Program-made: the position numbers and the translations under genes
Shown: positions 12,455 to 16,163 of the stretch, piece by piece
Layout: each line of letters opens with the position of its first letter
Numbering within the stretch: the stretch's first letter is position 1
The notes under the pieces: generated by a model
The model's database searches: none
The model's input: only the letters and a program-made list of their open reading frames with translations
Told to the model about the DNA's origin: nothing
Source: Deferribacterota bacterium
GTDB taxonomy: Bacteria; Chrysiogenota; Deferribacteres; Deferribacterales; UBA228
DNA length: 32,546 nucleotides
NCBI GenBank assembly: GCA_034189185.1
Contig: JAXHVM010000004.1
Location: forward strand, 1-32,546
Reading direction: 5' to 3'

Positions 12455-13289
12455 GGTAAAAAACAAATATCTAAGGGATATTGATTATTTTTCTAAAAAA
12501 GTTGAGCTAGAGCCAGATTCTAAATATTATTTTCCCTTGGCTTTTGCTTATATGAATTTGTCAAAATATGATAGTGTTATTGATGTTTGCGAAAAGGGCT
12601 TAGAAAGGCACCCCACATACATGCCCCTTGCAACACTTTTGGGTGAAGCCTTTCTTAAGAAGGGGATGTTTGAGGAGGCAAGAGTGGTATTAGAAAGTGT
12701 TAAAGAGAAAGATCCAAACAATTTTAAAGCGTTAAAACTCCTTGGTTATATATATTTAGAAAAAGATGATGCTGATAAGGCTTATGAAAATTTTAAAAAA
12801 GCCTATGAACTAGCCCCAGAAAGTGAGGAATTAAGAACAATATTAGCTGATTTCGAAAAAAAAGAGCAGGTAGATGAAAATGCTCTAAGTAGTGAGAATC
12901 AAGATAAAGAGACTAGTGGTGTTGACAATGACATTGATGGCCTACTTGATGATATATTTAAAAATATTGATAATAATATGGAACAAAAAGAGTCAAATGA
13001 TGGTGAAGAATCTAAGAATAGTAGTGACGTAGAGGCTAGTAAATTGCAGGACAGTGTTAATGATATTAATAACTTACTTATAAAAAGCAAAAATGTTGAT
13101 GAGGCGTTAGAAGGCAATGATAAGGATGATTTTTTAATAAATGATGAGGAGATAGCAAATATATTAAATGAAGATAGCGAAAATATGGAAAAAGATGAGG
13201 ATGTTGATACTAGAGATAAGACTCTAGAATCCCTTAACAAATTGCTAGATAATATTGCCTCTATTAAGAGGGAAAGAGGTATCCTTTGA
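12447..13289 (+). CDS. TPR protein with acidic, low-complexity C-terminal half
   Basis: No enzyme signature is visible. Residues about 1-135 are three to four tetratricopeptide repeats (segments beginning KYYFPLAFAYMNLSKYD, YMPLATLLGEAFLKKGMF and FKALKLLGYIYLEKDDA). The remaining 140 residues are rich in Asp, Glu, Asn and Ser and probably disordered, punctuated by short hydrophobic patches such as IDGLLDDIF, INNLLIK, EEIANILNE and LNKLLDNIASI. There is no signal peptide, so it is probably cytosolic. It lies between aroB and aroQ, overlapping both (the aroQ TTG shares bases with its stop). A scaffold or assembly role is possible but unproven. Confidence 0.75.
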   Translation: MDKVKNKYLRDIDYFSKKVELEPDSKYYFPLAFAYMNLSKYDSVIDVCEKGLERHPTYMPLATLLGEAFLKKGMFEEARVVLESVKEKDPNNFKALKLLGYIYLEKDDADKAYENFKKAYELAPESEELRTILADFEKKEQVDENALSSENQDKETSGVDNDIDGLLDDIFKNIDNNMEQKESNDGEESKNSSDVEASKLQDSVNDINNLLIKSKNVDEALEGNDKDDFLINDEEIANILNEDSENMEKDEDVDTRDKTLESLNKLLDNIASIKRERGIL

Positions 13290-13714
13290 GATTATTGATT
13301 ATTAATGGTCCTAATATTAATCTTTTAGGCAGTAGAGAAATAAACATCTATGGAGAGCTAAACTACAATTCATTAAAGAATACCTTAAAGGATTATGCAG
13401 CAAAACGGAATATTGAACTAGATATTTACCAATCGAACTATGAGGGTGAAATAGTAGAAAAGATCCAAAAAGCAAATACTTTTGATGGAATTATCATCAA
13501 TGCAGGGGCTTATACTCACACTAGTATAGCTATACGGGATGCTCTACTTGCAATCAACAAACCCTTTGTTGAGATTCATATTAGCAATGTCTTTAAGAGA
13601 GAAAGTTTTAGGCAGCGATCTTTTTTGTCTGATATAGCAGTTGGTATAATATGTGGTTTTGGGTTGAAATCTTATATTTTAGCTATAAAATATTTTGAGC
13701 TTGAAGAAATATAG
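13286..13714 (+). CDS. aroQ: Type II 3-dehydroquinate dehydratase
   Basis: Dehydrates 3-dehydroquinate to 3-dehydroshikimate, third step of the shikimate pathway. The 142-residue length and motifs are those of the small dodecameric type II enzyme: INGPNINLLGSREINIYG with the active-site loop Arg and Tyr, IINAGAYTHTSIAIRDAL, and VEIHISNVFKRESFR with the catalytic His region. The start codon is TTG, overlapping the stop of the TPR gene, with AAGAGG 6 bases upstream. With aroK and aroB it completes a three-gene shikimate block. A 53-base gap to efp follows. Confidence 0.96.
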   Translation: MRLLIINGPNINLLGSREINIYGELNYNSLKNTLKDYAAKRNIELDIYQSNYEGEIVEKIQKANTFDGIIINAGAYTHTSIAIRDALLAINKPFVEIHISNVFKRESFRQRSFLSDIAVGIICGFGLKSYILAIKYFELEEI

Positions 13715-13731
13715 ATTGTGTGATATTGTCC

Positions 13732-13763
13732 ATATCCACTATCTATTTTAATGTGGAGGATAT
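13732..13763 (+). promoter_or_regulatory. efp: Possible hairpin masking the efp ribosome-binding site
   Basis: ATATCCAC (13732-13739) can pair with GTGG (13753-13756) and ATAT (13760-13763), leaving a three-base bulge AGG and a 13-base loop. The helix would bury the GGAGG Shine-Dalgarno sequence of efp. The stem is short and AT-rich, so this is only a candidate for translational control. A weak promoter-like pair (TTGAAG 13701, TATTGT 13724) overlaps the region. Confidence 0.25.
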
Positions 13764-13767
13764 ATAG

Positions 13768-14334
13768 ATGATTACACCTAACCAGTTTAAGAAGGGTATG
13801 AAGATTGAGGTAAAAGGGGAGCCTTACATATTAATTGATTTTCAACATATAAAGATGGGCAGAGGTGGAGCAACAGTTAGAACAAAATTAAAAAGCTTGT
13901 TAACAAATAATGTAATTGAAAAGACTTTTAGATCAAATGAAAAAATAGATGTACCAAATTTTGAGGAAAAAGAATTACACTACTTATATAATGACGGGGA
14001 TTTTTTCTATTTTATGGATAATGAAAGTTTTGAACAATTTAGGGTATCAAAGGAAGTAATAGGTGATAGTGCTCTTTTTCTAGTAGAAAACATTGATGTT
14101 ACGATTCAGTTTTATAATGGTGAACCTATTGGGGTTATCCTTCCTAATTTTATTGATGTTGAGGTTGTCAAAACTGAGCCTGGTCTAAAGGGAGATACTG
14201 TAAGTGGAGGAACAAAACCTGCGAAGATTGCATCGGGAGCTACAATACAAGTCCCTCTTTTTATAAATGAAGGGGATATTATAAAAGTTGATACGAGAAG
14301 TGGAGATTATGTTGAACGAGTTAAAATTTCATGA
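13768..14334 (+). CDS. efp: Elongation factor P (Arg at the loop tip)
   Basis: Ribosome-binding factor that relieves stalling at consecutive prolines. It has 188 residues and the usual three beta-barrel domains: an N-terminal KOW-like domain (MITPNQFKKGMKIEV), a middle OB domain and a C-terminal OB domain with GDTVSGGTKPA and VDTRSGDYVERV. The functional loop reads KMGRGGA, placing Arg32 where most EF-P proteins of this sequence type have a modifiable Lys (KPGKGGA). GGAGG precedes the ATG. It is followed 8 bases later by accB, as in many bacteria. Confidence 0.96.
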   Translation: MITPNQFKKGMKIEVKGEPYILIDFQHIKMGRGGATVRTKLKSLLTNNVIEKTFRSNEKIDVPNFEEKELHYLYNDGDFFYFMDNESFEQFRVSKEVIGDSALFLVENIDVTIQFYNGEPIGVILPNFIDVEVVKTEPGLKGDTVSGGTKPAKIASGATIQVPLFINEGDIIKVDTRSGDYVERVKIS

Positions 14335-14342
14335 GGTGATCT

Positions 14343-14819
14343 ATGGATATAGAAGAGTTGAAGTCTTTGATTGAATTTGTAAATAAATTAGAATTAGATG
14401 AATTTGAACTTGAAAACGGTGATATCCGAATATATATGTCAAAAAATAAATTTATAAATACTACTTCTTTTGATAAAGGTGTTGTAGCAGAAAAAATAGT
14501 AGAGAAAGAAGATTCTTCTAAAAAGTTAGAGGAAAAAACATCTGCTGAAGAAAAAAAAGAAAAAGAGGATGAAGAAGGTTATACCATTATCTCCCCTATA
14601 ATTGGGACTTTTTATGAAGCACCAGCCCCGGGGGCAAAACCTTTTGTTAAGGTGGGTGATATTGTTAGAAAAGGCCAAACTTTGTGTATTATAGAGGCAA
14701 TGAAAATAATGAATGAATTAGAGGCTGAATTTGATTGTAAAATATTGAAAAGATTAGTTAAAAACGGTGAAGCCGTTGAATTTGGGCAGCCCTTATTTAT
14801 TGTAGAGCCCCTTACTTAG
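14343..14819 (+). CDS. accB: Biotin carboxyl carrier protein of acetyl-CoA carboxylase
   Basis: Carries the biotin that shuttles carboxyl groups between biotin carboxylase and carboxyltransferase. The 158-residue protein has an N-terminal helix region, a Lys/Glu-rich flexible linker (about 48-78) and a C-terminal biotinyl domain. The biotin attachment site EAMKIMNE has Lys121, and the family's thumb region is present (SPIIGTFYEAPAPGAKPFV). GAGGTGAT precedes the ATG. accC follows immediately; its ribosome site overlaps the accB stop codon. No carboxyltransferase subunit (accA, accD) is visible in the window. Confidence 0.96.
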   Translation: MDIEELKSLIEFVNKLELDEFELENGDIRIYMSKNKFINTTSFDKGVVAEKIVEKEDSSKKLEEKTSAEEKKEKEDEEGYTIISPIIGTFYEAPAPGAKPFVKVGDIVRKGQTLCIIEAMKIMNELEAEFDCKILKRLVKNGEAVEFGQPLFIVEPLT

Positions 14820-14828
14820 GTGAAATTT

Positions 14829-16163
14829 ATGTTTAATAAAATTCTAATAGCAAACCGCGGTGAGATAGCCTTAAGGATTATTAGGGCTTGTAAAGAGCTT
14901 GGAATAGCAACGGTAGCTGTTCATTCACAGGTTGATAATGAATCATTACATGTGGCATTTGCTGATGAGGCAATATGTATTGGGCCATATAGTGCCTCAG
15001 AGAGTTATCTAAATATTAAAAATATAATCTCAGCAGCTGAGGTAGCAGGGGCTGATGCAATACATCCTGGATATGGTTTCTTAGCAGAAAATGCTAATTT
15101 CGCAAGGATATGCAATGAGTGCAATATTAGATTCATTGGGCCAAAGGTTGAGCATATAGATACAATGGGCAATAAATCAAAAGCAAAAGAAGTTATGGAG
15201 AAATTAGGTGTACCTGTTGTCCCTGGAAGCAAAAGTGCTGTTAGGAATTTGGAAGAAGGATTGGCAGTAGCAAATGATACAGGATACCCTGTGATGATTA
15301 AAGCCTCTGCTGGTGGTGGTGGGAAAGGGATGAGGGTTGTATATGATAAGGATGGGTTTACCAAGGCTTTTAATATGTCAAAATATGAAGCTAAAAAATC
15401 CTTTGGGGATGATAGTGTATATATAGAAAAATATATTGAGAATCCAAGACATATTGAGGTGCAAATATTTGGTGATAACTATGGTAATGTGGTACATTTT
15501 TTCGAGAGAGAATGCTCAATCCAGAGGAGACATCAAAAGGTTTTAGAAGAAGCGCCAAGTCCTTTTGTAGATGATAAACTAAGAGAAAGCATGGGGGAAG
15601 CATCTGTAAAAGCAATGAAGAGCTTAGGCTACCAAAACTGTGGTACAATAGAGTATCTAGTTGATAAAAATAAAAATTTCTATTTTATGGAGATGAATAC
15701 AAGAATTCAAGTTGAACACCCAGTAACAGAAATGATTACCTCAGTTGACCTATTAAAGTTGCAGATTATGGCTGCCGCAGGCGAAAGATTGCCTTATAAC
15801 CAAGAGGATCTCAAAATAAATGGTCATGCCATAGAGGTAAGGATAAACGCAGAGGATCCTAAAACATTTAGACCGTCTCCAGGTAAGATTACTGGCTATT
15901 ACGCACCTGGTGGTTTTGGTGTTAGGGTGGACTCTACCTGTTATCAAGATTATATTGTTTTGCCCTATTATGATTCACTTATTGCTAAACTTATTACCTT
16001 TGACAATACTAGGAGAGATGCAATTAGTAAGATGAAAAGGTCCTTAGATGAGTTTATTATTGAAGGGATTGATACAACAATACCACTACATAAAAGGATA
16101 ATTGTTGATAAAAATTTTTGCGATGGCAATTTCAGTACTAGTTATTTAGATCAGCTCGTATAA
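14829..16163 (+). CDS. accC: Biotin carboxylase of acetyl-CoA carboxylase
   Basis: ATP-grasp enzyme that carboxylates biotin on AccB with bicarbonate, the first half of malonyl-CoA formation. The 444-residue protein starts MFNKILIANRGEIALRI and shows HPGYGFLAENA, the glycine-rich loop ASAGGGGKGMR, RHIEVQIFGD, ERECSIQRRHQK and MNTRIQVEHPVTE. An in-frame GTG at 14820 could extend it by three codons, but it forms part of the AGGTGA Shine-Dalgarno sequence (14818-14823), so the ATG at 14829 is preferred. The context accB-accC argues for acetyl-CoA carboxylase rather than a pyruvate or propionyl-CoA carboxylase subunit. Confidence 0.96.
   Translation: MFNKILIANRGEIALRIIRACKELGIATVAVHSQVDNESLHVAFADEAICIGPYSASESYLNIKNIISAAEVAGADAIHPGYGFLAENANFARICNECNIRFIGPKVEHIDTMGNKSKAKEVMEKLGVPVVPGSKSAVRNLEEGLAVANDTGYPVMIKASAGGGGKGMRVVYDKDGFTKAFNMSKYEAKKSFGDDSVYIEKYIENPRHIEVQIFGDNYGNVVHFFERECSIQRRHQKVLEEAPSPFVDDKLRESMGEASVKAMKSLGYQNCGTIEYLVDKNKNFYFMEMNTRIQVEHPVTEMITSVDLLKLQIMAAAGERLPYNQEDLKINGHAIEVRINAEDPKTFRPSPGKITGYYAPGGFGVRVDSTCYQDYIVLPYYDSLIAKLITFDNTRRDAISKMKRSLDEFIIEGIDTTIPLHKRIIVDKNFCDGNFSTSYLDQLV

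Follow-up and report, generated by a model that had tools for sequence, protein, structure and literature searches.

The window, a stretch of 32,546 nucleotides, encodes an elongation factor P (EF-P) with an arginine, Arg32, at its loop tip. Factors of this family act on stalled ribosomes, which they enter to stabilise the tRNA in the P site. We believe, with a probability of roughly two in three, that a bacterium of the Deferribacterales kind has this protein as its one housekeeping EF-P and that it probably acts with an unmodified Arg32. As far as seen, the class is invariant for the tip Arg. The unmodified state is the most likely one, which we infer from the absence of matches to the modification enzymes that were searched. 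The gene, its loop and its immediate neighbours are as follows:

13286-13714, + strand: aroQ, type II dehydroquinase (PF01220), the immediate upstream neighbour of efp
13768-14334, + strand: efp, elongation factor P of 188 aa, Arg-type (ORF with ATG start, family models)
13852-13872, + strand: beta3/beta4 loop K29-M-G-R-G-G-A35, seven residues (translation; alignment to solved EF-Ps)
13855-13857, + strand: Met30 codon, position -2 from the tip, which is mostly Pro in Lys-type EF-Ps
13861-13863, + strand: Arg32 codon (AGA), the loop tip
14343-14819, + strand: accB, biotin carboxyl carrier protein (PF00364), downstream of efp
14820-16163, + strand: accC, biotin carboxylase (PF02786, PF00289, and PF02785), downstream of accB

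The domain models found all three EF-P domains (PF08207, PF01132, and PF09285) in the product of 13768-14334, and its score against TIGR00038 was 247.8 bits (cut-off 185.8), which places it in the elongation factor P family. The loop reads HIKMGRGGATVRTK. In the alignment to solved EF-Ps, Arg32 aligns with the Lys of 1yby, a solved Lys-type EF-P. The original prediction that an EF-P with Arg at the modification site is encoded here was confirmed by the full-length ORF, the KMGRGGA loop, and the 1yby alignment. EFP_N matched this EF-P only in the whole genome, a draft of 2.14 Mb that is 96% complete and consists of 312 contigs. In the 29 genes of the window (9713 aa), Pro-Pro occurs 10 times and a triple Pro never, a sample too small for argument.

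EF-P was recovered from 44 of the 50 phylum genomes, and the loop was read in all 44. The loops were KCGRGGA (21), KMGRGGA (16), KTGRGGA (2), KVGRGGA (2), and KPGKGGA (3). All 41 EF-Ps recovered from the order and class of the window have a tip Arg and read G-R-G-G-A, and none of them has Pro at position -2. KPGKGGA, with a tip Lys, was the loop of all three EF-Ps of family f10, an outlying family of the same phylum. Six genomes gave no EF-P match. Among them was the only other genome of the window's genus (64% complete), so the trait is beyond check within the genus. A single base separates AGA from AAA, and a Lys codon misread in sequencing or assembly could in principle account for the Arg codon. 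With Arg in 41 of 41 class EF-Ps and Pro at -2 in none, however, the probability of such an error is practically nil, and Arg32 is neither a chance nor a sequencing event. The possibility raised earlier, that the relatives would all carry Lys, did not survive the comparison of EF-Ps across the class.

The original prediction also placed Arg32 in a Lys-type sequence background. This stands for the protein overall, whose best solved match is 1yby, but not for position -2, where Met30 takes the place of the Pro typical of Lys-type proteins and conforms to the Arg-type signature published in PMC6544042. Among 126 EF-P rows (80 relatives, 44 phylum EF-Ps, and the two adjoining earP), Pro at -2 was found in none of the 66 rows with a tip Arg, in 47 of the 50 with Lys, and in all 10 with Asn; the 80 relatives are the best 80 of 184 and thus a non-random sample, the Deferribacteraceae row L002 and L120 are identical over the tree columns, probably stem from a single genome, and were both counted, and L027 and L032, whose loops align with a one-residue gap, were counted as Arg. 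In the survey of 1166 EF-Ps reported in PMC6544042, Pro at -2 was almost absent from Arg-type proteins (14.75% of the set), and 100 EarP proteins were identified. Because our counts agree with this survey, the combination of Met30 and Arg32 can be regarded as a regular Arg-type loop. KMGRGGA has both features given there for an Arg-type EF-P, a tip Arg and no Pro at -2.

Several other loops were observed among these rows. Ten EF-Ps, mostly from Ignavibacteria (L060, L062, L066, L067, L073, L076, L077, L078, L080, and L030), have a tip Asn in loops like TPGNLRA and keep Pro at -2. Three Thermodesulfobacterium-like EF-Ps (L011, L013, and L015) read KVSKNQP or KVSKTQP, with a tip Lys, no Pro at -2, and no flanking glycines. 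The two Dehalococcoidia EF-Ps L027 and L032 have the loop KMKRT-A, which is shorter by one residue.

Three options had been left for Arg32, namely modification by EarP, a new modification, or function without modification, and searches of the genome for earP and epmA/epmB had been proposed. The EarP model (PF10093) gave no match in the window's genome and none in the 50 phylum genomes, 39 of which are at least 90% complete. There was also no match in 25 genomes of EF-P relatives, 23 of them with an Arg-type EF-P; one of the 25 is probably a phylum genome counted already. As a positive control, the model was run on 56 gammaproteobacteria and matched two of them clearly (451 and 338 bits). The EF-Ps beside these two true earP genes read KSGRNAA in the loop and share 33-36% identity with the EF-P of the window. 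The RmlC family PF00908, which serves TDP-rhamnose supply, had no match in the window's genome and matched 11 of 14 control genomes. The searches for RmlC and EpmA covered the window's genome only. EarP was rejected as the modifier by these model searches with a working positive control. An EarP missed in a draft of 312 contigs, or too diverged for the model, might still rhamnosylate Arg32, and kinship with EarP-type EF-Ps is compatible with the tree tests described below. Against this stand the 50 phylum genomes, none of which matched the EarP model, the window's genome, which gave no match to the RmlC family, and the different loop and low identity of the two EF-Ps beside true earP, and we consider rhamnosylation very unlikely. 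Of the three options, EarP is now the unlikely one, beside a new modification and an unmodified Arg.

YmfI, the enzyme of 5-aminopentanol-modified EF-Ps, acts on Lys, a residue that the loop tip lacks here. The searches for EpmA and EpmB gave a result similar to that for EarP. The best match to EpmA in the window's genome scored 261.8 bits, under the cut-off of 286.9 bits; this candidate is a 480-aa lysyl-tRNA synthetase (LysS) with an anticodon-binding domain and was rejected. No EpmB was found above the cut-off in any of the 50 phylum genomes, and the best match in the window's genome was 22.9 bits. In other families of the phylum, EpmB matches below the cut-off of 369.3 bits reached 264.5 bits. 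The stronger of these matches were mostly in open frames of about 370-460 aa, which may be lysine 2,3-aminomutases. With a tip Arg, LysS as the near match to EpmA, and no EpmB above the cut-off, the EF-P of the window does not have the features of an EpmAB-modified EF-P.

The window's genome encodes a strong homologue of deoxyhypusine synthase (326.6 bits). It did not reach the cut-off in any of the deoxyhypusine-synthase models listed, and it exceeded that of a polyamine enzyme, caldomycin synthase. In its operon (L145:23-2490, contig C13 of G000), it adjoins a pyruvoyl-dependent arginine decarboxylase and an agmatinase, an arrangement that resembles the homospermidine route of Thermus. According to PMC10981699, the homologue of Thermus thermophilus couples two agmatines en route to homospermidine. 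The distribution of the family was examined in 80 genomes in total. Of the 45 phylum genomes searched, two had it, the window's own and that of the one congener; it was present in 1 of 41 Arg-type class genomes (the window's own) and in 0 of 3 Lys-type phylum genomes. Outside the phylum, it was present in 1 of 13 Arg-type, 0 of 2 EarP, 7 of 18 Lys-type, and 2 of 2 Asn-type genomes. The family is matched in Thermus composti and Deinobacterium chartae as well. The presence of such a strong homologue, together with the matches in these two species, which belong to groups with a reported Arg-type EF-P, could suggest that it moves a polyamine or agmatine moiety onto Arg32. The caldomycin-synthase score, the adjoining decarboxylase and agmatinase, the role described for the Thermus homologue in PMC10981699, and a distribution that takes in 1 of 41 Arg-type genomes within the class and 1 of 13 elsewhere, compared with 7 of the 18 Lys-type genomes from outside the phylum, make such a transfer scarcely credible. 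A hypusine-like modification was rejected, as family model and operon both mark the homologue as a polyamine enzyme and as it does not track with Arg32.

Ten neighbourhoods of efp were fetched and compared by way of the window's genes and of unmatched open frames of at least 120 aa within 5 kb. The close neighbours that recurred were aroQ (8 of 10), a peptidase of the M24/PepQ-like kind (9 of 10), and accB and accC (8 of 10). The window genes for TPR proteins, aroK, aroB, ispE, prs, and pth recurred at a greater distance. In L141, efp lies in a different neighbourhood without the recurring neighbours. Among the neighbours in these ten neighbourhoods, no obvious modifier gene recurred beside efp. 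The Peptidase_M24 gene lies just upstream of efp in L135, L136, L137, L138, L139, L140, L142, L143, and L144. The window has no M24 peptidase; aroQ and efp are separated by 53 bases (13715-13767), and there was no match elsewhere in the window. In 4 of the 10 neighbourhoods, a Roadblock/LC7-domain ORF of 122-123 aa was observed upstream of aroQ; in the window, the TPR gene and aroQ have no gene between them. The positions of these ORFs are:

L135:6390-6758: Roadblock/LC7 ORF
L136:10918-11283: Roadblock/LC7 ORF
L137:10723-11088: Roadblock/LC7 ORF
L138:6807-7175: Roadblock/LC7 ORF

A careful tree was built from 48 rows, picked from the 126 to span the groups, over 177 columns. With the loop columns omitted and 15 of the 41 class EF-Ps used, the class EF-Ps formed one clade with a support of 100/97. 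In the free trees, the EarP-type EF-Ps sat on a long branch apart from the class clade. The AU test did not reject the joining of the class with the EarP-type EF-Ps (p = 0.76 for 126 rows and p = 0.32 for 48 rows), nor the joining of the class with family f10 (p = 0.38 for 48 rows). The 126-row quick tree was incompletely searched, as the tree constrained to join the class with the EarP-type EF-Ps came out 20.9 log units ahead of it. The EarP-type and Patescibacteria rows were joined in this quick tree, possibly a long-branch join. We give more weight to the 48-row tree. Parsimony counted 7 changes between Arg and not-Arg on the 126 rows and 5 on the 48 rows. By parsimony, Lys and Arg appear to have been switched several times.

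In the reading that we prefer, an unmodified Arg32, the lineage would have swapped the Pro-Gly-Lys loop for X-Gly-Arg, where X is Met, Cys, Thr, or Val. The change from Lys to Arg, a direction that we infer, would most simply pre-date the diversification of the class. EF-P with a bare Arg32 would then rescue polyproline stalls, presumably acting as Thermus EF-P and E. coli EfpL do. We propose the bare state by analogy with these two factors. Arg32 of Thermus EF-P is reported to touch C75 of the initiator tRNA and phosphates of the 23S rRNA (PMC2821294), and the tip Arg of E. coli EfpL was found to be unmodified by mass spectrometry (PMC11611912). It is also argued in PMC2821294 (Bailly and de Crecy-Lagard, 2010) that the translation machinery is able to adapt to an unmodified factor, and Arg is given there for this position in 24.1% of organisms without yjeA/yjeK.

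The main alternative is that Arg32 is modified by an enzyme other than EarP that is new to science. Judging by reports on other EF-Ps, a bare Arg tends to be weak: the K34R variant of E. coli EF-P has only about 20% of the activity when it is unmodified (PMC6544042), and the EF-P of N. meningitidis works poorly when unmodified (PMC4739656). We therefore keep an appreciable minority of our belief on a new Arg modification, which we consider possible but not probable. It would fit with the fixation of KxGRGGA in the 41 relatives read and with the EF-Ps of Patescibacteria bins, in which KMGRGGA is common and of which 0 of 14 bins searched had an EarP match. Since the window's genome is 96% complete and in 312 contigs, one modifier gene may be missing from it. 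The neighbourhoods speak against a new modifier, as none obvious recurs close to efp, and so does the bare tip Arg documented for EfpL in PMC11611912. The wider proposal that the KxGRGGA EF-Ps of the window's class and of the Patescibacteria bins are a widespread class whose Arg32 is modified by an enzyme unrelated to EarP seems unlikely to us. We continue to favour a bare Arg32.

The original prediction had implied a novelty for which we find no support. Borrelia burgdorferi, Thermus thermophilus, and Deinococcus radiodurans are already described as having an Arg-type EF-P without EarP in PMC4739656 (see also PMC2821294). With the present data, the Arg-type EF-Ps that are seemingly without EarP gain an entire bacterial class, which makes a clade-wide case. 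Such EF-Ps lend themselves to testing whether EF-P needs any modification.

Compared with known systems, the EF-P of the window resembles those of Thermus thermophilus and Deinococcus radiodurans in having a tip Arg in a genome without EarP (as PMC4739656 gives it for these two). They belong to another phylum, however, and Thermus EF-P has been visualised on the ribosome (work cited in PMC2821294), whereas the protein of the window is known from its sequence alone. With the EarP-dependent Arg-type EF-Ps of Pseudomonas and Neisseria, it shares the tip Arg and the absence of Pro at -2, but it differs from the two EarP-type examples in loop and sequence, and they have earP adjacent while the window's genome has no EarP or RmlC match. 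The Lys-type EF-Ps (KPGKGGA and similar loops in family f10, Bacillota, and others) are the closest in overall sequence, with 1yby among them, but their tip Lys and -2 Pro are Arg and Met here. EfpL/YeiP also has a tip Arg, which in E. coli EfpL is bare (PMC11611912); its loop is extended, and it is described by a separate family model, TIGR02178, against which the EF-P of the window scored 121.6 bits (cut-off 264.05), and the loop of the window's protein has seven residues.
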